Source of the DNA: Panagrolaimus kolymaensis
Lineage: Eukaryota > Nematoda > Chromadorea > Rhabditida > Panagrolaimidae
Assembly: GCA_028622995.1 (NCBI GenBank)
Contig: JAJQJQ010000013.1
Span: 3,596,001 to 3,660,000, forward strand
Reading direction: 5' to 3'
DNA length: 64,000 bases
The notes under the pieces: generated by a model
Database searches by the model: none
What the model was told of the DNA's origin: nothing
Seen by the model: only the letters and a program-made list of their open reading frames with translations
Program-made: the position numbers and the translations under genes
Shown: piece by piece, positions 34,380-57,085 of the stretch
Layout of the letters: the number at the start of each line of letters is the position of its first letter
How positions within the stretch are numbered: position 1 is the stretch's first letter

Positions 34380-34451
34380 TTTTTTTTTTTATATGTGTTA
34401 ACAACAAAATGTTTTATTATTGTAAAATCAATTTTTTTATGTTGCTTTTTA

Positions 34452-35872: not shown

Positions 35873-36279
35873 TAATTAACTCAAGAAATTATGGAAAAAT
35901 AAATACTTTTTACATAAGAAAATAATTATTGACTTTGCAAAAATTTAAGCAGAGTTTATTTTTAAACGCTATATTCCTTACCAAAACACACTTTTCGTTT
36001 AATACATTTAATTAAAAAAATTGCTATAGCAACGATTAAGGGAAACCAAAAATATATGTTTCAAAGGTAGCAAAATAAATAAAAATAAAAATTTTTTTAT
36101 TGATAAACTTGCATTTTCTCAGTAAGCTTTTTGAAAAATAGTTTTTTTTTCAGTGTATGACCCTTGCATTTGCTTATTAAAAAAGTGCAAAAAAAGTTTT
36201 ATTTTTTGTGAAAATGTAAAAAGTTTATTGAACAAAAAAAATTTGCTGATAAGAAATTTTTCAAAAGGAATGTCAATTT

Positions 36280-37155
36280 TTAGTAACGTCGGGAAGTTTT
36301 ATATGCAGTAATTAATTCATAATCTTCTCCACATGGCGACATAACCGTAACAAGACTTAATTTCGCAGAAATTTTCCAAAAATAACGATTATCTCTTTCA
36401 GTATCTTGTTCGATAAAATTTCTTGAGATAAGTTTATTTTGAAGATAATTTATAATCCTTTCTTCATCGCCGCCAAAATCATTTCCATGTCTAATGCGAA
36501 CGTGCGTGATTCCACGTTTGGTGTTGTTGATCGCTGTGTAAAGCTAAAATAACTACTTATAATTTTGTTCAAAACTTAATAATTTTTCTTATTTCTTAAT
36601 GGTTGCAACTTTTCTATTAAATAAAAGTCCAAATAAAATTAATACCATTACAAATTTTTAAACTTAACTAGACTTACATTTACGTTGTTTCCAAACAAAT
36701 GAGAAGGTAAGGAACAAATTAGCCTTTTGGGTTCTCTTTTTCTTCGGGAATTTTGTGGAGGTGGCAACGATCTTGATTTCAATATATTTCTTTCGATTTT
36801 CACTTTGTGTTGTGGCTGACAACTATGATTCCTACCTGAAATTTTAAGATTTTATCAAAAATATACATAGCTAAAAGTCCACAAAAGTTAAAATAATAGT
36901 AATAATAAACTTACCTGCAGTGGAACCGGTAATAACAGAAATATGAGGACGTTCTGGCAGTTGTACATTACAATGTCCTTTTTTAGCTTCATTATCATTC
37001 ACTCTCTGCCGAGAAGAAGAAGGTAATGAAGGGGTAGAGAAACTTTCAGTCGGTGAATATTTATCAAACGAATATTTTTTATCGTCTAGCTTTTTTTCGT
37101 TATTGGGAAAAGATGTCAATAAAATTAATTCATTTTCGCAATAAATGTGTTTCAT
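36280..37155 (-). CDS. Hypothetical protein, three exons
   Basis: Exons 37155..36915, 36835..36678 and 36543..36280 join in phase (GSTAG-RNHSCQ and FGNNVN-LYTAINN) to 220 residues. The first part is low in complexity and Ser-rich (SFSTPSLPSSSRQRV), followed by a strongly basic segment (SRRKREPKRLIC) and a compact C-terminal domain (GITHVRIRHGNDFGGDEERI, DRYFWKISAKLSLVT-like). The basic stretch could be a nuclear signal. I do not recognise the family. Its start overlaps the 5' part of the plus-strand gene at 37113. Confidence 0.55.
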
Positions 37156-38016
37156 TTTTTGAAGGATATAGCTTCGAAGTAAATACTCGCGCTAAAGAAT
37201 TCTCATTTAAACCCGCCGATGGTGAAGAAGAAGGAGGTTTCAGCGCAGGTTTTCATGAAATTTATGTGAAGCAAAATGTAAGTTTTTTTTAGCATTTTTT
37301 TATTTTTTTCGGATTCAATTATCATCGTTAAACTTTATTTTTAGAATATTATTTGTATTTTTGATTCGAAAACAAACGATTGTCGTTTAGCTGCGATATA
37401 CTTTGATCAAAGGGAATGTGATGGTGATTTTGATTTTATTGAGCGAAAGGTTAGAGTTTTTAGCTTCTTTTGATTTATATATAAAATTTACTCATTTTAC
37501 ATTTTTTTGCAGACATATACCAAAATTGATGAAAATCAAGAAAAGAATTTATATAAAAATAACTTTATTTTATTTTTAATTGGTATTTTAATTGATCAGC
37601 CTTTGACTTTTACACCTGCATTAAAAAATGTTTTAATTCAAATCCTTGGATTAACAACAACTCTTCCTTTGCCAATTATTGGAGCTTATGAAATCGTAAA
37701 CATTTCTGTGGCAGCAATTTCAAATAATATTGTTAATAATGAAACACCACCTACAAAATTAGAAACTCGTGGACCATCTCTCTCACCAACAAATGTTTCC
37801 ATGGAGTAAGTCAAACAAAAATGTTTTTAATTTTTTAATTATTATTTGTTATTGTTTTTTAGTTTACCACCTTTGTCTTCTGAAAATAACAGTTCTACTA
37901 CATCTTCTTATTTTTCACGTCGAGAAGAATTTGGGAATGAAGCAGCACCGATTGGAATTCTCTTTTTTGCATTTCTTGTTACTTTTTTATTAAAAAAAAA
38001 CAATAGAAAAAATTGA
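37113..38016 (+). CDS. Hypothetical single-pass membrane protein
   Basis: Exons 37113..37277, 37345..37449, 37513..37805 and 37863..38016 join in phase to about 238 residues. The N-terminal half is a soluble domain with Cys residues (YSFEVNTRAKEFSFKPADGE, NIICIFDSKTNDCRLAAIYF); then come a hydrophobic region (FILFLIGILIDQPLTFTP), a Thr/Ser/Pro segment, and a C-terminal membrane anchor (AAPIGILFFAFLVTFLL) with a basic tail KKNNRKN. No signal peptide is seen at ATG 37113, so the true first exon may lie elsewhere; the chosen start also overlaps the minus-strand gene by 43 bases. Family not recognised. Confidence 0.5.
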
Positions 38017-38109
38017 ATTAAAAACCAAAAACTAAAATGCAAAAGTAAACTTGAAATTTTTTGGAAAACAAAGTAAATAACTGGCAAGCATGATCAAGAA
38101 AAATATATT

Positions 38110-40001
38110 TTATGCATAAACGCCATAATAAATCAAAACTTCAGTTTCATAAACTACTCCATAAATAAATGGATTATTGATAACATGGCCTGGAAGAGAA
38201 GAAGTCAGAGATTCATATGGTTTTGATTGTGGATGATTGATTCCATCGACGGAAAGATCGAAACGAAGCTAAAAAATTAAAAATAAAGATTGTTAGATCT
38301 TTTTTTAACAAAAAACTTGATAAAAAAATTTTTGTACTTACAGCTTGATAAAATTTAATTAAATCATATTTAATTTCTCCCGGATTTGGATGATTGAAAG
38401 GTGCATAAATCGATAGTTGTTGTTGGTTTTTCAAACTTTCTTTAAAATATACAGAAAAATCCAAAGCATTTTGTTGGGAAAAATGTGGAATCCAAACATA
38501 TTGTAAATCAGTTGGAGAATTTAAAACTATTTTTAAATTATCCAAAATTTCTGATGGATTTGTTTCACGAATGAATTTATTATCCTAAAATTAAATGTAA
38601 ATTTTTGAGCGACGATATTCCTAATATTTTTGTATAGTTATTTTTATTTTTGAATATCAAACCTTAAAATTCGTAACAATAAACATATCAAAGCTGGCAA
38701 TTTTGAATTTAATTGCATGAAGATCATAGTGGCCAAATTCAGCAAATTTTGAAAGGGTGGAAAATAAATTAACCTGAAACGAAAATAATTATAAAAATAT
38801 AAAATATTTAGAATCAAAAAAAGCTCCTAAAAAACAAACATATTTATCTCCTTTTAATCCATGAAAGATTTGATTTCTTGCAAGTCCAACCCCAACTTTT
38901 TCAAACTCTAAACCATATTTAAGAAAGGTGAACCCAACGACCGTGTTTCTGGGGGTTGTAAAGTTTTCTGGAGAAAAAAATTTAGCTTTATAATCGTTGA
39001 GTCGTTTACGAAACATTTCATTAAAATGATGAGAATAGCTTCGATTTGAAGCAGGATAAACTGAGACATCATCAAAACTTGTGAATACATTCATTGAATC
39101 ATCGGTTTCATTCTGAAAAGAATTTGAAAAAGAGTGATTATTTAATTTTATATTTTCATTTTAGTTGAATTTTAAAAAAGCCTTACTCCTATAATAAAAT
39201 TGTTTATCATGGAGTTATTGGTGGCTTCCATATGAAATAATGAATTTTTAGCCGGTTTATAGTAATTATAAACATCAGCTACATTGGTATCTAAAATTGC
39301 AAATATTTAAGCAAAAGATAAAAAATTTAGATCAAACACTCACTTTCAAAATATTCATTCATTGCTGATTTTTCCTTAGAACTTCCAAAATTTCCAATAA
39401 AACTTAAAATATAATCAATTGCGAATGGAGAAATCACAAAATTAGTTGTTGATTGATTTTTCATAAAATAATTCAAATTTCCATGAACTTTATTTTCCTT
39501 TTGATTAAATGGAATAATTGTGTTTGAGGAAGCTGTTTCATCAGCATCATCGATGGCTGTCAATTGCGTGGCGGCGGAAGGAGAGCTAGATTCGTCTTCA
39601 GTTAAAGTTTCATTTCGAATATTATTTTCCTGATCGCCACTCGAAGAAAGAAGAGTGCCCAATAAATATCCAAGTCCAAATGCAATTAAAGCAGTAAGAA
39701 GAATGCAGCAAAGAATGGGGAGCCACGCAAATTTTTTAGAAGACGAAGTAATCGTTGTCGTTGTTCGCTTCTTGTTGGGTTTTTGTTGATGATATTCCGC
39801 CGTAGTTGTAGTTGCTTCTTTAATAACAATTAATCGATCTTTTGCTTCATCAGTATTCCCAGTAATTCCAAGTTCGGGTTCAGGTGAAGTTTCAGTTACT
39901 TCCGAATAGTTTACATCTCTGCTATGGATTGGATAATCATTTCTGCTGCTGGTATTTGGATTTGGATAATAAGTTTTAACATGGGCTTTTTCTTTAATCA
40001 T
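38110..40001 (-). CDS. Membrane-anchored serpin-like protein A
   Basis: Six exons, 40001..39344, 39290..39187, 39112..38840, 38773..38663, 38584..38342 and 38268..38110, encode 515 residues. About 105 N-terminal residues are cytoplasmic (AHVKTYYPNPNTSSR, later a Lys/Arg-rich stretch), then a membrane segment (LPILCCILLTALIAFGLGYL) and a Ser/Thr stalk. The rest follows serpin order: GNLNYFMKNQSTTNFVISPF, ILSFIGNFG; GFTFLKYGLEFE; VWIPHFSQQNALDFSVYFKE; SVDGINH; NNPFIYGVVYETEVLIYYG, the last like the serpin C-terminal 'HPF...' strand. The loop hinge lacks the small residues (T-E-A-A-A-A) of inhibitory serpins, so it is probably non-inhibitory. It is one of four related minus-strand genes with identical intron phases. 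Confidence 0.7.
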
Positions 40002-40585
40002 TTTTTATTTTTGGGTGAAAGAAAAATAACAAAACAAATATACTTCTTTTTTTTGTTGTTGGTATTTTTTTCTCGCAAAAAAAGGAAAAAGAGAAAAGAA
40101 AAAGTGAAGGTCAAAGAATTAACCAAAAAGTTAGACGTTGTCAATAAAAATAAAAACAACAGGTTTAAAGAAAAAAAACTAATCAACAACCAACAGAATA
40201 TTAAAAAAAAGTGTTTACCTTTTCTTATGTGTAAAAAAGATGATGGCCCAAACTTGATTGATTTGTAACCTTTAATGTTTAATATAAAATAAAAACTAAA
40301 ACAAAATTTTTGGTTATTCTCACACCGGTTTTTATTTTTAAGTTACAAAAGTAAAATATTCTGCGCAACTTCAATATGGAGATTTTTCTCAAAATTATTT
40401 GTTGTCGTTTTGTTTTTCTATTTTTTTTTGTTTATTATTTTTTTTATTAAAAAATTAAGACAATTAAGAATTAAAGAAAACCAGAAAAAAATGTTTGACA
40501 AAAAAAATAAATGAAAGTTCAATTAAAAAAAAGTGTTACAGAAGCGTAAAACTTTTATTAGGAAAGCAGAGCAACAAAAAAAATT
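40002..40585 (-). other. Intergenic
   Basis: Short spacer between serpin-like A and B, AT-rich with A/T homopolymers. It should hold the promoter of A. The overlapping frames on both strands near 40000..40270 are low-complexity noise. Confidence 0.4.
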
Positions 40586-42862
40586 TCAAGCATAAACGCC
40601 ATAATAAATCAAAACTTCTGTTTTGAACACGATTCCATACATGAAAGGCTTGTTAATAATATATTCATTGTTGGAAATGCCGGATGGATAATCTCGAGTC
40701 ATTGGACGGTTGAGACCTTCACCAGAAACATCAAAACGAAGCTAAAAAAATTAATTATAATCGAATTCTAATTTGCAGATAACCCTTTTTTGTCGCAAAA
40801 ATAAAAAAAGCCTTAAATTTGTTTTTGTATTTACTTGCAATTTTGTAGCCTACAAATTTATAATTTAAAAAAACTTACAGCTTGATAAAAATTTTTTAAA
40901 TCATATTTATCCTTGCCTGGGATAGTTTCATTGAAGGGAGAATAAATTGCAAGAGTTTGATTTAAAAATTTTTCTAAATATGGAAGAATATCAATTGTAT
41001 TTTGTGATTGAATTGTTGGAACACAAATGGAACTGTATGAAGTTTTAATTTTGCCAATTGCCATGGATTTCAAGTTTCTTAAAATTTCATTTGGTTCAAT
41101 GAAAGGAATTGAATTATCCTAAAAAAAAAGTAAGACCCTTAATTTAAGGAACCATTTTTATATAATTAAAAAAAGTAAGAGCTTGCCTTGAGATTTTCCG
41201 CAATAAACATATCGAAACTAGGATTAGTGAATTTGATTTGATGTAAACGATATATGTCAAAATCAGCTTGATATGAATTTGTAACGAATAAACTAACCTA
41301 AAAAAATAAAAAATATTATCAAGTTTTTAACTTTTAAATTGAAAGTTTGATAAAAAACATTTATGAATGATTTACTTTATGAATTCATAGAATTTTTAGG
41401 CAGAGTTTAAATTATCAAAACAAATTTTTTGAGGTAAATAAATTGTTAAAATCCATTGTTTTTGAAAATGTTGCAAAACGCGCATTGTGATTTTAAAAAT
41501 AAAGTTTGAAAGAAAGGCACAAAAGAAAATTAAATTTTAGAAAAGTTCCAAAAAATTTAGAAAAAAATAAGTGTTTGATTTTTGGTGATCTTATAAAGTT
41601 TTTGAGAAAAAATCCTTACATATCTTTCTTTTCCATCATTTCCATAAAATTTTTCATGCCTGTTGGTTTTATTTTCAATTTGTTTGAATTGAAGTTCAAG
41701 CTTAATATGGGAAAAGCCAACGGCAGTATTTACAGGGGTGATGAAATTTTTTTTAGAAAAAAATGGAATCTTGTTTCTACTCCAAACTTGACTTCGCTTT
41801 CCCAACATATCATTAAAATAATCAGAATATAAATAATCGGATGCAGGATATACTGAGACGCCATCAAAAGTGGTTAGTTCATTCATAAATTCTTTAGTTT
41901 CATTCTGAAAGACAGCTTTTGGACATTTGAGATTGAAAATTTAGTATTGGAGGAAATTGTTAACTTTCAAGATGTCCCTATCGGAATATATTTAAAGAAA
42001 TTATTGGGATTTCATGCTCCTCGAAAGTCAAAAAAAAATTAAGTTTTAATTTTACATGGAAACTTTGAAAGAAAAAAAAGTGTTTTGGCCCGAAAAAAGT
42101 TTGGTTATTCCCTTTTTTTTACTTTGGCTTTCTTTAAGAATATGTATATTTAAAAAGAACTTACGCCTGTTATGAAGTTCGAGATCATGAAGTTGTTTGT
42201 TCCTTTCTTGTCAAAGATTGATTTTTTAGCAGCGTTATAATAATAATATAAATCACCAAGATGGGTTGCTGAAGAAAAAAACTTTCAAATAAAAAAACAC
42301 ACTAAAGTTTTAAGTTTTAAATTTTTCCTTACTTCCAAAATATTCGTTAATTGCTGCCTTTTCTTTTGGGCCACCCACATTTCCAATGAAGCTGAGGATG
42401 TAATCTATTCCAAAAGGAGAAATAACGGCGGAGGTATGATTCTTAAAAAAATTATTTAAATTTCCATGAACTTTGATTTCTTTTTTGTAAAAGGGCATTG
42501 TGGTGGTTGATGGAAGTGGTGTGGGAGATGTGGCATTGGAAGATGATAGCTCAGAGGTGGAACCATTAAGATAGTCTAAAAATGAATTATTTTCATAAAT
42601 TCCTTGGAAAATAAGGAAAACCACCTAATCCAAAAACTAATGCAAAAACCATAGCAGTGATGATGAGGCAGAAGCAAGATGGAATGATGACCCATTTTTT
42701 AGTAATTCTTTTTGCAGGTTTTTTATCGTGTTTATAACGAATACCGATGGCCCTATGCTTTTCACGACGGGAAGGGATTGCGAAGTTTTGAGTATTTTCT
42801 CCATTGTGGCCGCTATTTGGATTAGGATAATAGGGCTTCGCTTCGAATTCTTTGATTAGCAT
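40586..42862 (-). CDS. Membrane-anchored serpin-like protein B
   Basis: Exons 42862..42625, 42575..42333, 42268..42165, 41904..41620, 41297..41187, 41118..40879 and 40741..40586 encode 458 residues. It has the family N-terminus (FEAKPYYPNPNSGHNGE), a membrane segment (WVIIPSCFCLIITAMVFALV), a short Ser/Thr stalk and the serpin-like domain (GNLNNFFKNHTSAVISPFGI, ICVPTIQSQNTIDILPYLEK, KPFMYGIVFKTEVLIYYGVY). Two oddities: a 49-base intron (42624..42576, GTGGTT...TTTTTAG) in the stalk that A and C lack, needed to keep the frame, and a GC donor (AAG-GCAAGC) after 41187. The reactive-loop hinge reads SGEGLNR, again not the inhibitory type. It is the most shortened of the three intact copies. Confidence 0.65.
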
Positions 42863-44148
42863 TTTTGTAGAAAGAAAAAACTGAAAAACTAATTTATAAA
42901 ACTTATTTAGAATCAGAGAAAACCAAAATTGCCAAAAAATAAAACGCGCTTAAAAGAACTAGGGAAAAAAAGGAAGCGGATTTTCAAAAGGTTTATATAT
43001 GTATTTTTAGATTAAGTCTATGTATGAATCATTTTTTTTAACTGTGCGCATCTTTTAAAGGCGGCACTTTGACCTTTTTTGTTTCTTTCATAAAGCTTTC
43101 GCATTTATTAAAAAAAACCAAACATAAAAAATACTAAAAGAAAGCATCCGTTAACGCCGCTACTGAAAATTATCGTGATCAACAACATTTTTTTTTGTTT
43201 CGGGGGAAATGAACTCCAATAAAGGCAAAGATCGAAAAAGATTTCATATTTACAGAGTAAAGAATATTTTGTATTCCTTGAAATAGCTTTTAAAAATTTG
43301 GTAGTTTTGAATTGTAAAATAAGCAATGCATATAAAATCAAATTATTTTAAAAAATTTTCCGGCGTCAATAAAAAACAAACTGAATATTGAGAGAAGAAC
43401 AAAAAATTGGACCAATCTTGTAGCTCAAAAAAGACGAAAGTTTGTAATTCGAAAAAGGGTAGAAAAAAGATTTTCAGCTTCTAAAAGCGTCGAAATTTTT
43501 TTTTTCGCAAATTTAGACTAACTTTTTTTATTTAAAAATAAAGTTTCATCATTTCCTAAAAAAGTAACTTTTTTCAAAAAAACAGAAAAAGAAAAGAGCA
43601 GCGAAAAGCCAATACGTGATGAAAGTCTTATTGCTTTTATTCTAGCAAAAAAAACTAATCACTTTTTGGTTCCTTCAAAAAAGAATAAAAGCTGCCGATT
43701 TTTTTTTATTCAGCGCAAAACCAAACTTTCCTTTTTTCTTATTTCCAAAAATATCGACAAAAACAAACAAAAAATTGTAAAAGATCAGCAAAAATAAAGA
43801 AAGAAAAGGATATTGGTTGATGGCAGACATCTTTTGAAGAAAATAAAAATGCAGCACCTAGTGAAAAAGATGTTGTTTTCGTTGTCAGCAGATGAATAGA
43901 ATATACGAACTATGCAACAACAAAAAAACAAAAAATATGCCGAATTTTGCATTTTGAAAGTTTCTCATTTAGCAAAAAAAAAAAATAAAAATTTCCTGTG
44001 CCAAAAATAATTAACGAACGCTGTGACAATACTGAAAAATTCACCTTACTTTCATTGATAACATGGCCGTTTTCATTCCTTTCATTATCATTTTGAGGAG
44101 CTCTAAAAATCAACGAAAGTTTTAAAAAGTCAGAAAAAGGAAAATCTT
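42863..44148 (-). other. Intergenic; promoter block shared with serpin-like C
   Basis: No gene. Blocks recur in the same order upstream of copy C: TCTATGTATGAATCATTTTTT at 43018.. and 48010.., CTTTTAAAGGCGGCAC/GCCGGCAC, AGCTGCCGAT...CAAACTTT(T/C)C, ATATCGACAAA/CCAAAC, AAAAGATCAGC(A/G)AA, TTGGCAGACA and GCAGATGAATAGA/GGATAGA. About 0.9 kb of upstream DNA was duplicated with the gene. Confidence 0.55.
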
Positions 44149-44887
44149 TTACGGGTTTTCAGTTTCTTCGACGCTTTGAGGTTCTTCTTTTGCAAAAACA
44201 AAGTCTTCCACTTTTCTCCTTTTTAAATACTTTAAAAATGCATCTTTTTCATTTCCTTCATAAGCATTCCAAAAATCTTTTAAAATTTCTTTGAAAAACA
44301 TTTCAGGATTTAAAGTGTCATTTATTGTCTTGCAAAGTGGAGTCAAAAATTTATTATAAAACTTTTTTTTGGATTCTTCAGACGAAAGCTAAAAAACTAT
44401 TTTAAAAAGAACTAATTAAAGAAGCCGATAATTTACCTTTGGATTGTTTTTTGAAATATAATTATGAACCTTTTCACAAACAGCTTCATTGTGAAAAACC
44501 AAGGCAATATTACACTTTTTATCTTTATCAAATACACATAAAATATGCTAAAAGCTAATAATTTTAAAAGCACATAAAAAGTTATTTACTTACTTTATGA
44601 AGAATATATAAACTTTCAAAAGATACAATAACATCATTGGGTTTAAGATCTAAAAAAATGAATTTTTAGGTAATAAAAAAGTTAAGAAAAATAAACCTTC
44701 TGTTTGAGGTGAAACTGTTAAATAATATGACCCAAAGTTAATTATTATTTCACATATTCCTTTATATTCTATTCTTTCATGACGGGTTATCATTAATAAA
44801 TGTTTCATTTTACTCTAAAAATTTTTTTTATAAATTATTAATAAACGTAAAAAAAATAAGAATTACCGGATTTGAATTTTCTTCCAT
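44149..44887 (-). CDS. Hypothetical protein, five exons
   Basis: Exons 44887..44867, 44814..44697, 44649..44594, 44547..44437 and 44388..44149 join in phase to 181 residues. The tiny first exon reads MEENSNP. Residues 10-100 look like one small mixed domain (HERIEYKGICEIIINFGSYY, DVIVSFESLYILHKHILCVF); the rest is helical and charged (LSSEESKKKFYNKFLTPLCK, EMFFKEILKDFWNAYEGNEK) and ends with an acidic tail (EEPQSVEETENP). The strand pattern of the first part could be PH-like, but that is a guess. No signal peptide or membrane segment. It sits between serpin-like B and C and looks unrelated to them. Confidence 0.65.
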
Positions 44888-45585
44888 TATTAATAAAAAT
44901 TAGAAGAAAACTTTTTTGGATTTCCAAAAATGCGAATAAAAAAATAATGAAAATAAATAAATTAAATCTTGAGATAAAAACAAATAACTTTTCGCCAAGG
45001 ATAGAACTATAAAAAGTTTTTTTGCAAACAATTCTTTCTTTGTGGGCGAGAAAGTAATATTTTAAGCTATTTTGCACTTTTGAGATTTCTATGGCAGCAA
45101 CAAAATAGGTCACGAAGAAAACAAATAGCTTGAGTCAGATTTTTTTCATTTTATTTTTAGTGATATGAAAATGTGCCGCCTCTGTTCGATATATCTTTTC
45201 TAATAGAATGTGAAGCTGTACTTTTGTTTCGGCATGGTTTGTGCCTTTAATTATCCATGGCTGAAATAGTCAAGTTAAGGTCCAACAGTAATTTAGAGAA
45301 TCAACATTTTTGAGGAAAGTTGCTATTATTATATACGTGGCAAAAAAAAAGATGAGAAAAATTTGTTTTTTGTTATTGAACTTTTTTTAAACTTATTTTT
45401 CTAAGTTTTATATATATATTTTTTTTATTAAATCAAAAAAAAAGCTAAGACAATTAAAAAAAATGTAACAAATCTTAAAAAAACCAAATAAATCTTAAAA
45501 TTTTAAAATAAATGCAAAACCGAAATAAATTTTTATTAGGAAAATGTCAGAATTAAACTGGCGAAAGAAGAGCAAACAAAAAAAA
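44888..45585 (-). other. Intergenic
   Basis: About 700 AT-rich bases between the five-exon gene and the 3' end of serpin-like C. I see no gene; the frame at 44838..45113 is mostly the first exon and upstream DNA of the neighbour. Confidence 0.4.
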
Positions 45586-47853
45586 TTAAGCATATAAGCC
45601 AAAGTAAATAAAAACTTCATTTCGAAAAACCACTCCATAAAGGAATGGATTATTGATAGCATGTCGACCGAAAGAAACCCATTGTTGAATAGGCTTTGAT
45701 GGATCACGATTGACACCTTCAACGGATAGATCGAAGCGGAGCTGAAAAAAAGAAAATAGGATAAATCGAAAGTTTGTTTTTCGAAAATTAAGTAATTAAA
45801 AAAAAGTAAAAATTATACTAATATTTTAATAGAGAAAAGAAAAAAATACCATAAAACTTTTTCTTTTGTGAACTTTCCAAATTTAAAAACTTTTTTGAAC
45901 TCCACAAATATTTTTGGAACAGTTTTCAGGGATTAAAAAAAATTACAAAAAACTTACAGCTTGATAAAATTTGTTGAGAACATATTTATCTTTTCCAATA
46001 TGTGTGGCATTGAAGGGAGAATAAATGGCAAGAGTTTGATTTAAAATATCTTTAAAATAAGGAGCAACATCGATGGTGGTTTGTTGACGAATTAAAGGGA
46101 CTTCAATGGTTTTTTCGGTAATATTTGAGGCTTTAAGGGATTTTAATCCCTTTAAAATTTTATCAGGATTTACAACAGGAATGGAATTACCCTAAAAATG
46201 GATAATGTATTTAATCAAAAAAGAAAAAGCAAGATTCTGGATTTTCTAACCTTATAATTCTCAACAATAAACATTTCAAAATCTTTATTTTGGAAAGAAA
46301 TGGCATGAAGGTGATAATTTCCAAAATCAGCACTCTTTGAATTTATTCCAACTATTGTGACCTGAAATGGAATAGAAAAAAGTTAATGAAAAATGTCTTT
46401 TAAATGCAGAAAGTTAAAGAAAAAACTTTATTTTTTAATAAATCTAAACCTTACCATTTTATCTTCTTTGATTCCATGAAACATCTTTAATTTTTCATAA
46501 ACATGTGGAGCACGAGCAAATTTAAAAACTAAACCAAATTTAATAAAAGTGAATCCAACGACAGTATTTTCAGGGGTTGTAAAATGATCAGGTGAAAAAA
46601 ATTTTGTTGCTTTATCATTGTTGTTGAGTCGCTTTCGAAACATATCATTAAAATAATGAGAATATGATCGATCGGAAGCAGGATAAACTGAGACATTATC
46701 AAAAGTAGATTTTTCTATCATGAAATCACCTTCATTCTATAAAAAAAATAAAGACATTTTTATCAAAAAGTTGGGGTGTTGCAAAGAAGAAGAAAAAGAA
46801 AAATGGACTTTAAATCCCAAATTTAACCAAAGTGAAAATCACCAACAAAATGTCCAAAAACAAATAAAAGCGTTTAATTTTTTGAATTTGAGATTTTTAT
46901 AAAAAAAGATTTTTCATAAAAACAGGGATTTCTACCCTTCGATTTTCTGTCGATGAAAAAAATAATCTTAAAAATAAACACTCAAAACTCACATTACTTT
47001 AATCTCAAAATTTAGAAACAAATCTTTTTTTAGTTTCCCTTCAAAATTCTCTTATCTAACTTTTTATTTTTCTCTTATTTTTGTTAGAGCTTTTAAAAAT
47101 AAAAAAAGAAAACATACACCGGTAACAAAATTACTGAGAATAAAGCCGTCATTCTTTTTGAATAATACATTTTTGAGGGCATTAAAATAGAAGTAAGTAT
47201 CAGAAATAGGGGAATCTAAAAAAAGCGAAGGGTTAACAAAAATTTTATGTACTATGTAAAACTTTTTAAATTTTTAATTACTTACTTCCAAAATATGCAT
47301 TGATCGCTGCTTTTTCTTTTGGGCCACCCACATTTCCAATGAAACTCAAAATATAATCCATTCCAAAAGGAGAAATAACAAAAGATGTTTGATTGGAAGA
47401 AAAATAATTTAAATTTCCATGAACTTTGATTTGCTTTTGATGAAATGGCTTTGTGGTGGATGTTGATGGAAGTGCAGTGGTGGGAGTTGTAGAAATAGAA
47501 GAGGGAAGTTTCGAGGTGGTTGGATCAATGAATTTTCCTGAAGAAGAAGAAGTATTGCTGATAATTTCGCCGTCATCTGTGGAAGAAGTAAAATAAGTAC
47601 CACCAACACCAAAAACAAGGGCAAAAACAATAGCTGTGATGATGAGGCAACAACAGCAAGGTAATAAAACCCATTTTCGACAAATTCCTGCACCAGACCT
47701 ATGTGGTTCAGCAGTTTCTTTGAGGAAGACGATTTTCACTTCTGGTTCTATAAGCGAATCGGTTGCTAAGGCTTGGGCAGCTTCCGATGTTCCATTTTCT
47801 CTGCTGCTGGGATTTGGATAATACGCTTTAGCGTGAAAGTTTTTCTTTAACAT
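45586..47853 (-). CDS. Membrane-anchored serpin-like protein C
   Basis: Six exons, 47853..47286, 47215..47118, 46736..46455, 46361..46251, 46191..45958 and 45741..45586, encode 482 residues with the intron phases of copy A. Order: cytoplasmic start (FHAKAYYPNPSSRENG), membrane segment (WVLLPCCCCLIITAIVFALV), Ser/Thr/Pro stalk, then the serpin-like domain (GNLNYFSSNQTSFVISPFGM, DYILSFIGNVGGPKEKAAIN; DNVSVYPASDRSYSHYFNDM; VVGFTFIKFGLVFKF; NNPFLYGVVFRNEVFIYFGL). The Cys cluster at the membrane face could be palmitoylated. The hinge reads SVEGVNR, not inhibitory. The serpin domain would face the outside (type II topology, positive charges before the anchor). An ectodomain role at the cell surface is inferred. 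Confidence 0.7.
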
Positions 47854-49362
47854 TTTTGGAGAAAGAAAAAACTGAAAAAAAAAAGTAATTAGTTTTCAAC
47901 CTTTTAAAATTGCCTAAAAAATAAAACGCGCATAAAAAAGCTACCAAGAAAAAACGAAAGAAAAATACAATTGCCTATCGAAGGGTTTATAAACTTTTAC
48001 AAAAGTCTTCTATGTATGAATCATTTTTTGTACGAAAAAATCTTTTAAAGGCCGGCACCTTCACTTTTTTTTGGTTCTTAAAAAGCTCGATGATTCACGC
48101 ATTAGTTAGAAAAGCCAAAAACAAAAAAGCGAAAAAAGCAAAAAAAGAAAACATCCATTTGCGTCACTGAAAATATCGCGATCAACAAATTTCATTTTTT
48201 GGTTTGGGCAAAATAAAACTTAAAAAAAGGGAAAAGGCCAGAAAATATCTTATCTTTTTTTGCACATTTTCTAATATGTAGATAAACCCAAAAAAAACTT
48301 GCGCAAAAAAGCTTTCAATTCAAGTAATTTTTAGAAATTTCCGAAACAAAAAAAGAAAAAATGTGATCAAACAAGTAGGTCATAAAAGCGAGATATTTGT
48401 TGCGTAAAAATAAATTATAAAATCCGCCTCAAAAAGTTCAAATTTTTTTTACAAACTCTGCAAAATTTTTTTTAATAATTTACGAATCACCATCTCCCAA
48501 AAAAGCATCCATTTTTATAAAGACAGACAAAAAAGAAGATCGTAAACGACGAACACGCAATGAATGTTTTATTGCTTTCATTTGTACAAAAACGAATTCT
48601 TTTTTGGTTCTTTCAAAAAGCTGCCGATGTTTTTTTTTCAACGCAAGCCAAACTTTTTTCTTTCTTTCATTTTTCCAAAAATATCGACCAAACAAAAAAT
48701 TTTTTGTAAAAAAGATCAGCGAAGATGAAAAAAAAGAAAGATGTTATTGGCAGACAATTTTTTTTTTTTGAAAAATACAACACCAAGCGTTAAAGATGTT
48801 GTTGTTGTTGTCGGCAGATGGATAGAAAGATACGTACGTACATTGCAAAAAGAAAAAATGGAAATATACCGAATTTAGCATTTTCAAAGTTTTTTTTTTG
48901 GTTAAAGATCAAAGGAATTTAGAAAGAGAAAAAATAATTTACATCTTTTTTTGACTTGCATACTTTTGTTTTATTAATGAAAAAGTTACTTTTGCGAAGA
49001 AAATCAAAGAAAAAATGCAAATGAGAATCGCTGGCTTATGGCTTATAATTTTTCTTGTCCATCTTTGACTGGACTTCTGAAAAATGAAAAATAGATCGGC
49101 ATTTTTTTGCTCATTCTATTTCAAAAATACATTTTTCTATCATAAAACTTTTTGTTTATTCATTTTCCTTTTAAATGGACCACTTATAGTTTAAAATGTG
49201 AGATAAATTAACGTCAAAATGAATTATTTTTTATTTTTGCTTTATTTCGATTCAAAAATAAACTTTCTTGTTTATTGGAAAACCAAAAAAATATGTACGC
49301 ACAATATTTAAAAATAAAGTTTTTTAGTTTTACATTCATATTTTTACAATAACATTCCGTTC
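47854..49362 (-). other. Intergenic; promoter block shared with serpin-like B
   Basis: About 1.5 kb without a gene. The first 1 kb repeats the order of blocks seen at 42863..43900. The rest is AT-rich. The plus and minus frames near 48480..48700 fall in the duplicated block and are not conserved as proteins. Confidence 0.5.
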
Positions 49363-51154
49363 TTAATAATCATCTTCATCACTTTCATCACTTGTATCGA
49401 AATTAGAAACATTGGTGATAGTGAATAACAATTTTCTCCTTTGATGATTCAACGAGTTTAACTTTTCCTTCATTTTTATTTCAAATAAAGCCAAAAGTTC
49501 TTCATCAACTGTCCCAATAAATGTTATAATTACTGAAGCTTCAGGTGCAAGCGTTTGCTTAAATTCAAAAATGGTAAACAATTTTTTAAGTTTAAAAATA
49601 ATCACTTACCTTAATGAAAGTATAAAATACTTCAGCATTCATTGATCCGTTAAGGATTTGAACTTCAAGCAGCTTAAGTTTAAATTTTATTGAAACTATT
49701 TGCTGATAATTAGCTCCATCATGGACTTTAGCACTACAAAAGCATTAGGTTTATGTATTATTAAATGAAAAGTTTTTTAATAAATTGATACCTACCGAAA
49801 ATTTTCAACGTTGGGAATATGTAATAGTAATGCCTCAAGGGAAATAAGGCTTTCATCATCATCCAAGACATCGGCATTGTATGAATCCCATTCCTTAACA
49901 AAACCAAATTTTGTGAGAATCTTCAACTCATTCGCTGAGAGAACAATTTTTCCCAAAACAATTTTTTTAGCATCACAACGATAAACATGTTTTAGCATTT
50001 CTTTGTCATCATAAATCATTAAATTAGTTATCCAAAGTTTGCCAACATCAGAAGTTTTTATACCATAATAAACATGATCGCTTTCAATCATGTAAAAGCT
50101 GCCGTGTTTTATATCAACATCGCTAACTACGCAAAATCGAAATTTACTGTAAAAATATTTGCATGTTCGATGTAGTTTTTTTCATTATACGACCATTTGT
50201 ATTTTCAAGAATAAATCGCATGAAAGTTTGACGAAATGGAAATTGTTGTTGTTGCTGCATGTTTTGATTATTCCAGGTAATGTTTTGCTTGAAACCATCT
50301 AAAATAATTTGAATTATTTTTATACAGAAAAAAAGTACTAAGGTTCCTACAATTTAACTTCCAGCACAAGTAACATCTTTCAAAAAATTTCGGAATTCTT
50401 TCACGAAATTTATCCACTCTTTCGTTGAAAGCTTTTTCGAATATCCTAGTTGCGTTATAACTTGAAAATGTAAGACGAATAGTAGCATTTCGAAAAGCAT
50501 TCTTCTGAAAATTTGTATGAAACGATGCATATTTTGTGTTTAAAAAAACTTTACTTTTATAAATTTATAACACGAATTGACATCCAAAGAACCAGTCATT
50601 CCACTAACTTTAAAATATCGAAACTTATGTTTTCTTGGAATTGTGAGCAATGTGGTCATGGAATGTGGAGAAACTTGACAACTTTCTATTCTGAAAAAAA
50701 AGAAGATACAAATATCTTATGTATTGCCTCATAAACAAACTAGCTGCATACTCAATGTTTTGCGCCGAAGGGAGAAACGCTTCAGTACCATTTTCTTTTA
50801 AAACAGAATTGCATTCAAAACGTTCGACTTTTCCAGATTTTGTTAACATTTTGAATTTTTCATACGATATCTTGATTACTATAGAAATACAAACTGCGTC
50901 ACATCGAACAACTTTATTGAAAAGTTGAAGATGGCTTAAGTTATGACATCGCAACCATAATTTATTTGTAACCCATATGTTTTGAATATTTCCTGATTTA
51001 AATTCTTTATAGCGACCGGAGCCGCCCGGTAATAAACCAAAATGGGTGAACTCACTCGCAATATATCCTTTATATCTTTCTTTTCTGGTCTTTCGCGTAA
51101 AACAATTAATCTCAAGATCATTTAAATAAGGATGGGTTTTGTTATGACAGCGAA
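49363..51154 (-). CDS. F-box-like family protein with two joined units
   Basis: Exons (from the 5' side) about 51154..50752, 50690..50555, 50504..50351, 50298..49796, 49733..49610 and 49557..49363 join in phase. Unit 1 has HFGLLPGGSGRYKEFKSGN, VVRCDAVCISIVIKISYEKF and ATIRLTFSSYNATRIFEKAF; its F-box start is missing. An in-phase splice then leads to unit 2: FPFRQTFMRFILENTNGRIM, HRTCKYFYSKFRFCVV, HVYRCDAKKIVLGKIVLSAN, and a C-terminus with PEASVIITFIGTVDEELLAL, ending DTSDESDEDDY. Between RIM and HRTCKY one extra A in a run of seven (50176..50182) breaks the frame. The units match the protein at 33289..34379. Either two genes were fused by splicing, or two damaged tandem genes only look joined. 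The start is not found. Confidence 0.5.
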
Positions 51155-51590
51155 CTATTGTCGTACATCACATGGCACGAAGAATGATCGAAAATACCTT
51201 TAAGATATTTTTCCTGTCACACTTAAGAAAAATAGTTGGCTTGTTTTTCAGTAAAAATGAGCAAAAAGACAATAATTGTGAGATACCTCAGAAGACAATA
51301 TTCTCACTATTTAAAAGCCATTTTTTAAATATGTCACTTCTCTGTGTAATGTAAATAAATATCGAAGTGTCGTAGTTAATTTTTTATGTCATGTTTTTTG
51401 AATTTACTAATAAAATAAGTAAAAAAATTTTAGAGCCGCTTTAATAATTTTTCACTTTATTCTCTCACCATTTTGAATTTATTCAGGGGCTTACAACAAA
51501 TTAAAAGTCTTTATTTAATTGTTTCTACGAAATAAAATAAGCAGTAAAGCTATTTTTATATTAGACAATAAATAATTAATGGAATTTCCT
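51155..51590 (+). other. Intergenic
   Basis: About 430 bases. A plus-strand frame at 51172..51354 starts with a proper ATG (MARRMIENTFKIFFLSHLRK) but has no recognisable features, splice partners or paralogue, so I do not call it. Confidence 0.35.
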
Positions 51591-53776
51591 TTAAGAATTA
51601 CGCTTAAAATATGTAAGAAGTGATGTTTGTGTTTTCACGCCTGAAGATAATTTTTGCTTTTTTGGAGCTGGGGGTGAGCATGAATTGTTTGATGGTCCAG
51701 CTAAACTTGAATTGCCACTTTGAGTGTGCATTGATAATGAGTTCAAAGCAGAAGTATTTAATGAATCTGTTGATACATCAGGGAAGCCTTCAATACTTGT
51801 GATTGGGTTTGAATCGGTCTCAGAGGTAGAAGAAGGAATCAAAACCTGGCTGGAACTTGATGATTGAGAATTTTTTGGTGCATTTGAAGGCAAATTAATT
51901 TTACGTTTTTTTCGTTTGATAAAAGACTCATTTTTTACCCATTCAAATTCTGCTTTGAAACCAAGATTTTTAAGTTCCTTTGTTGCATTATAAAATAGAA
52001 CTAAAGCTGGAATACGTAATACTTTTTCATTTCCATCCATAATTACAGCAAAATGTGTAGTTAAGTTACTAATATTTTGTTTAATACCATCGACAAATTT
52101 TTGACCTAAAAGAATGGTCAAAACCAGGATCACTTAAAAAAAACTTGCTTCCATCATTTTTTAAAATTTTGTTTAACGCTTCTTGTTTTTTGTTTACTAA
52201 AAAAGTTGCAGAAAGAACACCTTGGTCAAATAAACGACCGAGTTTTGATGTGTCACCATAAAATTTTACATGAATAAAATGTCCATCATCCGTTAATAAA
52301 TCGCAATTTTCGTATTTATTTAAATTTCTTAGTTTAGTCCCGACTCCAGTTGTTTTACAATCAAGTAATAAATAATCCTTTGTATTTGCAACATATTTAT
52401 TATATTCAAATTCTCTCCTTGTCAATAAAAAGTTTCCATTTTTGGTTATTTCTTTCAAATTAAAGGGAGGCATTTTTGATTGTTGACTGTTAACAGTTTT
52501 TTCTTTCAAATTATCTTTTAACTTTTGAAGAAAGTCGGGTTGCACCTTATACCAAACACCATCGCTGTGTACATACTGACAACCTAAATATGCAAAATTA
52601 TATTCGTAAAATACATTTAAAGTAATTTTTACCTTGGTATATGGTTTCAAATGATAAACATCTTTTTACACTCCATGACAATGGCTTTTTATTTGTTGCA
52701 AAAGCTTTAACCTTATGCTTTTCTAATTGTTTAATAATTTCAAAATAGTTATTGCTGGCATAAAGATTTCTTTCACGTTGGGTTAGCATTTTCAAATAAT
52801 CTTCAATATCTAATTTTTCGAAAAAGTCTTTTTTCTTTTCACCACATTTCATAAATTTTATTTTTTCATAATTGTAAACATTTTTTGTCCAAGGAATAGT
52901 CAAAGCTAAAGGTTCTTGCTCGAGATCATCGTTTTTGACGAATTCGTTGATGGCGTTCATTAATTTTTGTTCCAAAGTTTCTAAAGTGTATTGGTTGTAC
53001 ACTTGTTGAAAATTTGTTAAAAACAATTTTTGATTTTCTTTAAATTTTTCATAAAATCTTTTGCATTCTCCTGGAAGTTCTTCAAAGCTTTTTTTAACTT
53101 TGAATCGTACTTTTAACATGTCACATCCACTAATTCGTTCCCCAGCATTGACTTCATTAGCTTTAGCTCTACCGGTTAATCCTTAAAAAAACGTTTAAAA
53201 AGCTCATTGTTGAATTTTTTTAATATCTAACTTACTTTTAACGACATCCATTTCACCAACACGCAATTCATCCTTGGTACCGCCGGAAGGATTATGACCA
53301 CTAAAAGAACGAAGCTTGGATATCATGGTTATTGTATTAATATTAGTAATGTGGTCAGGATCAATAGTGTTTGTTACCACCAAAAATCCAAAGTTGCGCT
53401 CCATATAATCCAAGTTTAGCTGTTGGTATCCGCTTCCATGACAAATAACCATCCATCTATGCTTTTTTGATAGTGGATGTACACAGCTGTTATTATCAGT
53501 TTCAAGAATTTTTTCAGCATCTGTTTGGTCGACATCGAATTTGACAAAAAACAAGCAGTAGGACCGCGATTCCTTAAGACTTTCATCATCAATATCGTAA
53601 ATATCAGCCCAAGTAGGCACGTCACATGGAATATTTCCAAATTTTATCAAAAAATTATCATTATCTTTGAATGGTGGGATTTTTTTAGGTTTTTTCATTA
53701 CCTCATCAGGTATTTTGTCTTCTTTCAATAAATATAAAGAAATTTCTTGATGTTTTTTATTTTTATTGCTGCTCAT
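51591..53776 (-). CDS. TIGR04141/DUF6119-like protein with nuclear tail
   Basis: Exons 53776..53236, 53181..52633 and 52583..51591 join in phase, about 695 residues. From memory the blocks follow the bacterial 'sporadically distributed' TIGR04141 (DUF6119) family in order: SLYLLKED (residue 12 on); RNFGFLVVTNTIDPDHI (126-142); LTGR...GERISGCDML (182-203); VWYKVQPDFLQ; KYENCDLLTDDGHFIHVKFY then LGRLFDQGVLSATFL; HFAVIM, and FYNATKELKNLGFKAEFEWV near 590. The tail adds about 100 Ser-rich residues, two basic nuclear-type signals (IKRKKRKI, PPAPKKQKL) and a final QTSLLTYFKRNS, a PIP-box pattern (Q-x2-L-x2-Y-F). The family's function is unknown; a nuclear, PCNA-linked role is inference. One extra base in an A run (52098..52102) shifts the frame after HSFRSK; with one A fewer both halves join. 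Confidence 0.65.
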
Positions 53777-54443
53777 AATTTCCTGAAATATTTTTTATAT
53801 TGAAAATGACATAAACATGATCATAAAAGAAACTATAAATTAACTTGATTGGATGCTCACGAAAGTTAACATTCGCGCAAAATTCTTACACTATCATCGT
53901 CATTTTTAACTTTTGAAATAAACAAAAGCAAATCAATAGAAGCTTTTCGAGAACGTGTGTCAAAAAAATATTATCAAATTGTCAACTTTATTTTTTAAGT
54001 AAGTAAGAAAAATACTGGAATTTTAGATTAATTTATTTGGGTTTTGGAACATTTTTTAAATATTTTAAAACATAATATAATTTTAGAAATAAGTTTTTTA
54101 TATCGATAAGAAGCATTAAAAAAATCTTTTATTTTGTTGACAAATTAAGCTTTTTCGTCTTTTTTGTAGAAGAAATGGAGTGGAACGCACTTTTTTGAAT
54201 CATAGCCATCTATCTATTTGCTGGTTGTGCTAATAATCCATTTTTTAAAGATCTTATCATTTTTAATCGATTGATGTGAAATAAACAAATGTCCTTGCTT
54301 TTTTCTAAAGTTTTATTCGAACAATTTTTTTGTTTGTTTGTTTTACCATTTTCCGTGTATATAAAAAAATGGTGTTGCGTCTTTACAAAAAATTATTGAA
54401 AAGATTTTTATTTTCAAAAAATTAAGCAAACATAAATTAATTT
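53777..54443 (-). other. Intergenic
   Basis: About 670 bases between two minus-strand genes, AT-rich. It should hold the promoter of the DUF6119-like gene. No mobile-element ends or GC change that would mark a transferred segment were seen. Confidence 0.4.
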
Positions 54444-56153
54444 TTAACTTTCATCAAAAATGGATTTTATTTGTAATGAAGAAAAAGTTAGCAATTCACA
54501 AATATGTTCTTTTACACCCAACATAACATAATTTTCATGGCCACTTTGAGTTTGACACAACCATGCATAATTATATAAATCGATTTTTTTACATTCTCGA
54601 CAATAATAACAATTTGCTTTGTGAAAATCATATGCATAACATAATTGATAATTTCCATTAATTGGAAAAATAATTAATAATTTTTCGCCATTTTCTGCGT
54701 TTTTAATAATAAAATTTTCTTGTTTTATTATATCATTTTTGATGGAAGAATTGATGGGATTTTTTCTTGGTGTTAAACTTTTACTCGAGCATGGCCTTGA
54801 TTCATCTGGGCATTGGGCCACCGAAATTTGTTCCTCTGGAATATGAATGATTGGTGTGCATCGATGTTTTTCTGAACCCAAAAGAATGTAAGCTGGAGCA
54901 TCGATGCGTTCCATCAATCGTGCTGAAACCACACATTTAAAATTTTTTTCACAAGAAAAACAATAAAAACATTTGGTTTTATCATTCCAAAAATATTCAT
55001 AACATAAATTTTTATCTTGAAAACAAAAAAGTGTGAGTTTTTGAGGTGTATTTGAGCCAAATGCAAATTCATTTGAAATTTCATAATTGGGGGAATATAC
55101 AACTTTTTGATCAACATATGTGTTGTCGTCGTCGTCACAGTTATCATGGCTATCTTGAGTTAAATTAAATTGAATTTCATCAGACATTTGAATTTCAGAA
55201 TTCTCAAAATAATTATTATCGTTTACTACTTCTTGAGTTTGATCCAAAAATTCCATTTCTTCATCGATAGTCTCTTCAACGGGAATATTGTTGCTGTAAT
55301 CAATATTCGAGGTTTTTAAAGGTTCACAAATATGTCTATTTTCACCCAAATCCAAATATTCTTTTCCATCCGTCGAATCATAACAAAATGTCGCTTTAGT
55401 CCAATGAGTTTTTAGTAAACATTTGGAACAAAAATATCCATTTTCCGAAGGTGAAAAATAATATTCATAATGTAATTCGGGCGAAATATAAACTAATAAT
55501 CTTTTAGTTTTTAATCCATTTCTATTGCAATTTATTAATTTATAGCTTATTGAATTATTTACTGTTATTATTTGTGATGGATTTGGAGGAGCTGGAATTT
55601 GAGCCATTGAGGAGGATGGAGAACTAAATCCCGAGCTAATTCCATTTGTTCCAAAACCATTTTGAGCCGGTGAGGTATTGGAATTATTTTTTTTAGTTTT
55701 CCTTATTTTTGGTGAAATTTGATGATTGGATTGTTTTTGAGGAGGAATAAATCCAGAACTGATTCCATTTGTGCCGTTGTTGCTGCTGCTTCCTCCATTT
55801 TGGCCAAATAATGGAGAACGAGAAATAAGAGTATTAACAGCTTTATATCCCTCAAATGGATTATATAAAATTAAATTACAAATATGCATATTTTTATCCA
55901 ATTGTAAATTATATCCAGCTATATCAGGAGATTGGACTAATTTGGCACTAACATTTTTCCATTTTCTTGCACATTCAGAACATAAATATTCATTGTCTTT
56001 GGATTTTCGATAAAGATATCCAAATTTTCTTTCATTATTTAAAAATAAAAATATTTTTGAATTATTTTGTTTTCCATTTATTTTGTTTTTGGTAACCTCA
56101 AAATTTCGATGATGGATAATATTTTTCGAAGTCTCAGATGATACAACATTCAT
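54444..56153 (-). CDS. Protein with four C-x2-C...H-x-C repeats
   Basis: One exon from ATG 56153 (MNVVSSETSKNIIHHRN) encodes 569 residues. Four repeats like those at 16829..19295 are centred near residues 45-105 (YLCSECARKW, KNMHICN), 220-280 (YFCSKCLLKT, ENRHICEP), 370-430 (FYCFSCEKNF, SEKHRCTP) and 490-555 (YYCRECKKID, KEHICELL). Linkers are Gly/Asn/Ser-rich (GTNGISSGFIPP, repeated as GTNGISSGFSSP) or acidic (DDDDNTYVDQ). Each repeat probably binds one zinc. A nucleic-acid or protein-binding role is inferred. The frame is open upstream of the ATG and continuous with the last exon of the damaged receptor at 56151..57085, so a 102-base longer, receptor-fused reading also exists. Confidence 0.7.
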   Translation of the reverse strand: MNVVSSETSKNIIHHRNFEVTKNKINGKQNNSKIFLFLNNERKFGYLYRKSKDNEYLCSECARKWKNVSAKLVQSPDIAGYNLQLDKNMHICNLILYNPFEGYKAVNTLISRSPLFGQNGGSSSNNGTNGISSGFIPPQKQSNHQISPKIRKTKKNNSNTSPAQNGFGTNGISSGFSSPSSSMAQIPAPPNPSQIITVNNSISYKLINCNRNGLKTKRLLVYISPELHYEYYFSPSENGYFCSKCLLKTHWTKATFCYDSTDGKEYLDLGENRHICEPLKTSNIDYSNNIPVEETIDEEMEFLDQTQEVVNDNNYFENSEIQMSDEIQFNLTQDSHDNCDDDDNTYVDQKVVYSPNYEISNEFAFGSNTPQKLTLFCFQDKNLCYEYFWNDKTKCFYCFSCEKNFKCVVSARLMERIDAPAYILLGSEKHRCTPIIHIPEEQISVAQCPDESRPCSSKSLTPRKNPINSSIKNDIIKQENFIIKNAENGEKLLIIFPINGNYQLCYAYDFHKANCYYCRECKKIDLYNYAWLCQTQSGHENYVMLGVKEHICELLTFSSLQIKSIFDES

Positions 56154-57085
56154 TTTATATGTATTTCGATATAATAAAGCGCATAAAAACGAATCTATGA
56201 AACCCATTACAGTTGACCAAGGTCCAAGATAGGATACTAACATAATTCCAAATGCCTGAAACATGTTGTTTTACATTTATTAATAATAATCGAAGCCAAT
56301 TAAAAAATGTGTCGTCGTCAAATTTCTCTTACCCCTAAAAACACTGAAGCAAGGACGTGCGGGACAAAATTGAAAATAAAATTAATGATCAATGTTTTGA
56401 ATATAATTTTATTTGACTAAAATTTAAAAAATATTCTTTAATTTATTTTTGAATAAAAAAACTTACATTGCCTTTAACATTTTTTGATAAATGAATATTT
56501 ATTCTATTTCGAAAGAGCCATAATAACCAAACACAAGTGCAAAGAATAAGAGCACAAGTAAAATATAGAATTTGAATATACCATGAGCGCGGTTGAATTC
56601 CTATACATTTCTCTAAATTGCAAAGTGGAAACATTGGAATCATAATATACAATAAATCATAAAAGTCAATAATAAAAATAATTATAATCGCTAAATATAC
56701 TGGCTTCATGGATGGTTTTTTATATCTCAATGGATACATAACACAAAAGCATCGATCTAATCCAAGCGTAAATGATGCAATGGGTAATGCCATAAATGAA
56801 AATTTTTGTATAGCCATAATAAACCACCATAAATATCCATCAAAAATTATATAAATATTAAGCCAAAATAAAAAAATATCCAAGAAATATTAGGGTAGTA
56901 AATGAAGTCAAAATTTGTATGAAAATATAAAATTGCAGACTTGGTGAAAATTCCACTGTCGTAGCATGTCGTAGTAATCCACGAACATTATTATTTTGAA
57001 GACGACGAAGAAAAAGTATTTTTTTAAAAATGTAAACACTCACTGAACTAAATAAAATAGATAAAATAAATTCTATTTCGGGTAT
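56151..57085 (-). pseudogene. Damaged 7TM receptor, WRP-x-E-N group
   Basis: The parts are 57085..56467 (TM1 to TM5), 56416..56333 (TM6, NKIIFKTLIINFIFNFVPHV) and 56255 onward (TM7, LVSYLGPWSTVMGFIDSFLC), joined in phase 0 by good splice sites as in the receptors at 11821 and 20361. The first part begins without an ATG: the expected start reads ATACCC after a TAA. One extra base in a run of seven (56870..56876) breaks the frame between LIFLGYFF and NIYIIFDGYLWWF. The core ALPIASFTLGLDRCFCVMYP and the CNLEKC loop are kept. The last exon has no stop of its own and reads straight into the zinc-type ORF. Probably a pseudogene; the run could be an assembly error but the missing start could not. 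Confidence 0.6.

Follow-up and report, generated by a model that had tools for sequence, protein, structure and literature searches.

The 64,000-nucleotide stretch of the Panagrolaimus kolymaensis genome analysed here, hereafter the window, carries a gene of the DUF6119/TIGR04141 protein family on its minus strand (51591..53776). The gene runs from ATG to stop over four predicted exons and codes for 679 residues. Exon 1 (53236..53776) contains the start codon and the N-terminal part of the protein. It is followed by exon 2 (52633..53181), by exon 3 (52149..52583), which holds the candidate active-site residues, and by exon 4 (51591..52105), which codes for the end of the DUF6119 domain, a low-complexity linker and a tail. 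Predicted introns 1 (53182..53235, 54 nt) and 2 (52584..52632, 49 nt) are of the GT-AG type, lie in phase 1 and occupy the same sites in the other five loci of the family found in this genome (by eye in one of them, L012). Predicted intron 3 (52106..52148, 43 nt, phase 1) is of the GC-AG type with the donor GCAAGT. Exon 4 also codes for two basic clusters resembling nuclear localisation signals, KRKKRK (residues 572-577; 51900..51917) and PKKQK (residues 656-660; 51651..51665), and for a motif of the PCNA-interacting peptide (PIP) box type, QTSLLTYF (residues 668-675 of 679; 51606..51629), all on the minus strand. An earlier reading of the DNA from its letters alone (the sequence-only reading) had proposed this gene interval with its conserved blocks, two nuclear-type basic clusters in a C-terminal extension and a terminal Q-x2-L-x2-Y-F motif, and each was recovered at its place. 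It had counted two spliceosomal introns where three are predicted, the GC-AG intron having been missed.

This third intron deserves attention, as the frame break near 52106-52148 resembled a frameshift, a tiny intron or decay at first inspection. GCAAGT is the donor consensus of GC-AG introns, and a GC-AG intron preserves the frame in both the window copy (43 nt) and the copy on contig C60 (L010, 44 nt). Two shorter GT-AG options of 19 and 28 nt restore the frame in the window copy but fail in the C60 copy, in which, by reading, this stretch is one base longer. Phase-1 GT-AG introns stand at the same place in L009, L011, L012 and L013, in L012 by eye. The window gene is intact under the predicted GC-AG reading, since the frame break is explained by an intron that works in two copies.

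The family assignment made by the sequence-only reading was checked by hidden Markov model search and both matches lie far above their cut-offs. The protein matches DUF6119 (PF19614) over profile positions 69-524 of 524 (E 5.8e-75, 253 bits for a cut-off of 27) and, as a 687-residue model variant, TIGR04141 of NCBIfam (E 3.5e-59, 200.7 bits for a cut-off of 35). The same variant, compared with 5.8 billion proteins, retrieved 20 relatives, all of them DUF6119 proteins with 22-29% identity. No PADLOC model matched the nematode protein. Among 20 bacterial members, four PADLOC models were weakly matched by one or two members each (best E 0.006). A search of solved structures by sequence returned a single row at E 0.72, which is not meaningful. 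Homology of the N-terminal part to RdgC appeared in structural rows only and profile comparison gave it no support. In an open-access paper library no study of the family was found under DUF6119 or TIGR04141, the sole paper naming DUF6119 being concerned with wheat MADS-box genes.

A candidate nuclease active site can be drawn from the alignment. It comprises E421, D438, E455, D458 and H468-x-K470 (52264..52413, minus strand). Non-nematode rows retain these residues in 96-97 of 97 cases, and so do all five nematode copies aligned; they are present in L012 too. More generally, the near-invariant bacterial residues E, D, E, D, H-x-K and Q are all retained in the five nematode copies compared. 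In a structural model of a bacterial DUF6119 protein, the predicted topology of the C-terminal domain appears similar to that of PD-(D/E)xK restriction-like nucleases (HamA of Hachiman, Cfr10I, EcoT38I, PspGI, Shedu SduA, CdiA-CT), and positions for the D and the K are available. The canonical D...(D/E)-x-K motif is nevertheless absent: D458 is present, but H468-x-K470 replaces (D/E)-x-K, as it does in bacteria. Because H-x-K stands where (D/E)-x-K is expected, the window protein was not filed as a canonical member of that superfamily.

Beyond the domain, the protein continues with KRKKRK, a Ser/Asn-rich linker, PKKQK and the terminal QTSLLTYF-KRNS. PCNA forms a ring by which enzymes of DNA replication and repair are tethered, and the consensus of the PIP box, Q-x2-[ILMV]-x2-[FY]-[FY], is fitted by QTSLLTYF. 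The tails of the related copies on C60 and C13 end in QTAITDFF-KSSPS and QKKITDFW. Across these three copies the consensus anchors are constant while the other letters vary, with W as the last aromatic in one of them. The motif would be expected by chance in about 1 in 1000 random 20-residue tails of the protein's composition. It was found in the last 30 residues of none of 99 non-nematode homologues, one of which has it elsewhere, and a search of the protein database with exon 4, the tail exon, returned nothing at E 0.01.

The assembly was searched with the protein as well as the family model; these searches, whose locus counts are lower bounds, revealed at least six distinct loci and two small contigs repeating two of them. 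Both C12 (the window's contig) and C13 carry the gene at two places about 350 kb apart, and C60 and C26 carry single copies. This layout suggests two loci in three subgenomes: locus II, with the window copy, L012 (C13) and L010 (C60), and locus I, with L011 (C12), L009 (C13) and L013 (C26). Identity between the two subfamilies is roughly one third, and they may have divided roles. All three predicted introns are at the same places and in phase 1 across the six loci (L012 by eye) and, being placed alike in both diverged subfamilies, they predate the subfamily split. The three locus-I models (L009, L011, L013) have no PIP-type motif; basic clusters near the C terminus are seen in L009 and L013.

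Purifying selection is indicated by the ratio of nonsynonymous to synonymous divergence (dN/dS). The window copy and L010 differ by a dN of 0.065 and a dS of 0.199 (ratio 0.33, 674 codons), the ratio is 0.26 for L009 and L011 and 0.40 for L009 and L013, and it stayed below 0.5 in every comparison made. The first exon of L011 contains a change of frame. L012 (G000:C13:3457501-3466500), compared with 48000-56300 of the window, is a strongly diverged copy in conserved surroundings: exons 1, 3 and 4 are at a dS of 0.86-1.73, and flanking stretches of about 1 kb are 85-88% identical. Its exon 2 is interrupted by an insertion of about 2.5 kb with, by eye, a retrotransposon gag-like open frame inside. 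Beyond this genome, a search with exon 3 returned two fragments. One (P0021) is about 51% identical to the window locus, diverges near the intron-3 site and likely comes from another nematode or another animal; the other (P0022) is nearer to bacterial rows.

The origin of the gene was addressed with three trees; the 80 loci used are the best 80 of 182 relatives. A first, quick tree had 104 rows, a 216-residue frame (L025) having been removed beforehand. For the second, of 78 rows, 33 of the 104 were dropped as near duplicates and six plasmid rows, all alphaproteobacterial and chosen from 31 plasmid matches, were added with one phage row. The third, under a mixture model, used 42 hand-picked rows of these 78. 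As its exon 2 is interrupted, L012 was excluded from the trees, and L011 was entered from an internal methionine. The nematode copies group as a single clade in the 78-row tree (100/100), within a branch of seven rhizobial and rhodobacterial rows (99/99), with Mameliella, Mesorhizobium sediminum and Paracoccus aminophilus as sisters (99/94). The same sisters were recovered in the 42-row tree (100/97), on which an approximately unbiased (AU) test rejected the grouping of the seven bacterial rows apart from the nematodes (p 0.022). In the quick tree, which included only one of the seven rows, M. sediminum again stood beside the nematodes. Other alphaproteobacterial rows (L069, L090) were placed elsewhere.

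The bacterial origin proposed by the sequence-only reading is supported by nesting among bacteria under two models and by the AU test, in trees whose rows are the copies of this genome and bacterial and phage proteins. Of the outcomes that this reading had named as refuting it, neither the lack of a significant family match nor, within these rows, a tree with an old eukaryotic family and no bacterial branch was encountered. The domestication that it proposed agrees with the three shared predicted introns, the dN/dS values below 0.5 and the corresponding places on several contigs. Bacterial nesting, predicted introns, host-like surroundings and purifying selection, which together characterize a transferred and domesticated gene, are all found. 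The base composition of the gene is AT-rich like the rest of the window, and among nine proteins of the window that were scanned, one scored above the cut-off as an Srh chemoreceptor. In 14 control genomes no member of the family was found. Horizontal transfer is well supported by these sequence comparisons, and the gene was likely acquired by a nematode ancestor from an alphaproteobacterium. A viral or transposon-borne origin was considered and set aside: in a pattern scan of viral contigs 75 stretches matched and none held by tblastn, and mobility of the copies is spoken against by their corresponding places on C12 and C13. One study reports intron-bearing transferred genes in panagrolaimids (PMC6889759), and the window gene may already figure as a transfer candidate in the gene lists of that study.

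The neighbourhoods of the bacterial relatives give a hint of their function. In three of the six plasmid regions viewed, the gene order is hsdS-hsdM-hsdS-DUF6119-hsdR-sprT, mostly with overlapping frames. Of the other three, one has a NACHT gene, one has IS110, UvrD, Shedu and TIR genes, and one lacks any annotated defence system. In M. sediminum, matches to HsdM, HsdR and SprT surround the DUF6119 gene. Within the branch bearing the nematodes, type I restriction genes flank DUF6119 in four of seven rows (L114, L117, L120 and, by tblastn and without an HsdS match, L092), with the SprT-like protease after hsdR. The six-gene arrangement suggests that DUF6119 is a working part of a type I restriction system. 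This alphaproteobacterial operon houses two of the three nearest bacterial relatives (L114 and, by tblastn, L092) in addition to L117 and L120 of the same branch, whereas the third (L119) sits outside such a setting. At the nematode locus the DUF6119 gene is the only component of the operon recognised.

In the wider family, a type I restriction gene lies near 16 of 80 prokaryotic loci and not near the other 64, a raw count from one query set and in part from short flanks. A scan of 138 neighbouring proteins from 37 of the 80 loci, with frames above 900 residues left out, gave type I methylase and specificity subunits as the commonest PADLOC/Pfam neighbours among the matches listed (4 to 7 members each). 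Also listed were NERD, with two occurrences, and BrxL and YhcG, with one each. Relatives were found in 31 plasmid records and one phage record. In the latter (L115, Pseudomonas phage vB_PaeS-D14B, 38375-40084), a distant relative adjoins an integrase gene near the end of the phage genome. The link to mobile elements named in the sequence-only reading is supported, together with a link to defence, for the part of the family documented by these neighbourhoods, plasmids and phage. We take at least some of these proteins to be nuclease-like parts of mobile sets of defence genes.

Taken together, these data are best accounted for by an animal DUF6119 gene, likely of alphaproteobacterial origin, whose product is a predicted nuclear DNA-cutting enzyme brought to DNA by PCNA through its tail, a reading to which we give a probability of about 0.6. 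Family membership, the place on a nematode contig, selection and conservation of the motif within this genome are shown by the data above, and the introns are predicted and shared; nuclease activity, PCNA binding and cellular role are what we infer, as follows. The bacterial protein would be a nuclease acting alongside defence genes, type I restriction enzymes among them, and the fold of its C-terminal third would resemble that of restriction nucleases, H-x-K replacing the usual (D/E)-x-K. The nematode domain would have retained these residues while basic nuclear signals and a linker were gained, and the PIP-type tail would recruit the protein to PCNA at forks or at patches under repair. Its most likely task there would be the processing or cutting of DNA in replication-coupled repair, or an attack on foreign DNA. 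The locus-I copies, with basic clusters but without the PIP-type tail, would act elsewhere in the nucleus. A more specific version, in which a restriction-operon nuclease, formerly an anti-phage cutter, has become a PCNA-guided guardian policing or repairing DNA at the forks of its own cryptobiotic, parthenogenetic host, is tentatively put forward.

Several observations bear on the strength of this scheme. Another histidine invariant in bacteria is kept in only one of the five nematode copies, and an invariant serine, as aligned, in none. The PIP-type motif also occurs in the last 25 residues of 2 of 206 other stop-to-stop frames of the window (at least 60 residues), i.e. about 1% in AT-rich DNA, and anywhere in the shuffled protein at a frequency of 4.4%. 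On the side of the phylogeny, the nematode stem is long, the AU-tested group was picked after seeing a tree and six of its rows are hand-chosen plasmid records; for these reasons the alphaproteobacterial donor class is likely, not certain.

The alternative that survives best keeps the same bacterial origin and makes the protein a weapon against mobile elements or viruses, with PCNA docking as the means by which the nuclease would reach the DNA of transposons or viruses during its replication, in a restriction-like defence. It is a serious possibility, if clearly a less probable one. Restriction operons can harbour the bacterial relatives, which may also neighbour Shedu, TIR, NACHT, AbiE and BrxL genes, and the C13 copy is far more diverged in its exons than in its flanks (dS of 0.86-1.73 against 85-88% identity), as some fast-evolving defence loci are. 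The protection of self DNA is left unexplained by it, however, and dN/dS is below 0.5 throughout. Less probable again, a transferred protein without nuclease activity could have been retained as a PCNA- or DNA-binding scaffold. The H-x-K in place of (D/E)-x-K would fit, as would the replacement of the bacterially invariant histidine in four of five nematode copies; yet H-x-K is the bacterial state too (H and K each in 96 of 97 rows), and six core positions are kept in all five copies despite 22-29% identity to the best database proteins. Slightly lower still stands the proposal that the tail is mainly a degron, a PIP box with TD marking the nuclease for PCNA-dependent destruction by CRL4-Cdt2 in S phase, away from forks. 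QTAITDFF and QKKITDFW of the C60 and C13 copies carry TD where the degron consensus has it, but in the window copy these positions read LT, and the basic residue that this consensus places four positions past the motif is missing from all three copies. Bacterial contamination, an assembly artefact or a decaying insertion, which the frame break at first evoked and to which one interrupted locus of six and the frame change in L011 might be added, is very improbable given the multi-megabase contig, the predicted introns, the nematode neighbour gene, the window-like AT-rich composition, a GC-AG intron explaining the break in two copies and a dN/dS of 0.33.

The window is part of a 4.72 Mb contig in an assembly of 265.8 Mb and 807 contigs; the genome report gives 266 Mb, 856 contigs and 49 mitochondrial contigs, bacterial contigs having been removed (PMC10374039). 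Directly upstream of the DUF6119 gene, and also upstream of the C60 copy, lies a long open frame (54447-56270) which, like another at 16829-18292 (both minus strand), contains repeated Cys/His blocks, slightly FLYWCH-zinc-finger-like by eye; neither matched Pfam. Several alike open frames at about 31300-47900 (minus strand) have by eye a membrane-anchor-like start and a serpin-like stretch, and for the single frame searched against Pfam nothing matched at 1e-3.

Compared with bacterial DUF6119/TIGR04141 proteins, the nematode protein shares the profile match and the E..YN..D..E-x2-D..H-x-K set. The bacterial proteins are mostly of about 520-570 residues and without a PIP-type tail, whereas the nematode copies add three predicted introns, basic clusters, a linker and, at the window locus, such a tail. 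For the family itself, a functional hypothesis is offered, namely that its members serve type I restriction systems as nuclease-like partners. PIP-box proteins such as FEN1, p21, POLD3 and UNG2 have Q-x2-h-x2-aromatic-aromatic near the C terminus beside basic residues, as in the window protein, but here the motif sits on a bacterial-type domain and binding is predicted. If true, the gene joins the known animal captures of bacterial DNA-acting genes given a eukaryotic targeting part, which would be in this case a C-terminal motif some eight residues long, with constant anchors and otherwise variable letters. Since the host nematode survives freezing and drying, according to its genome report (PMC10374039), a role in DNA repair or genome defence is directly testable. 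A known parallel is N4CMT of bdelloid rotifers, described in PMC8885841 as a captured bacterial DNA-acting gene fused to a chromodomain. Animal capture and a eukaryotic targeting part are common to both, N4CMT being a methyltransferase with chromatin targeting and the window protein a nuclease-like one whose motif is of the PCNA type. Bdelloid rotifers also provide DNA ligase E (PMC10665377), another bacterial enzyme acting on DNA that a stress-tolerant animal obtained by horizontal transfer; it is a ligase whose effect on damage tolerance was demonstrated, whereas the window protein is nuclease-like by prediction.
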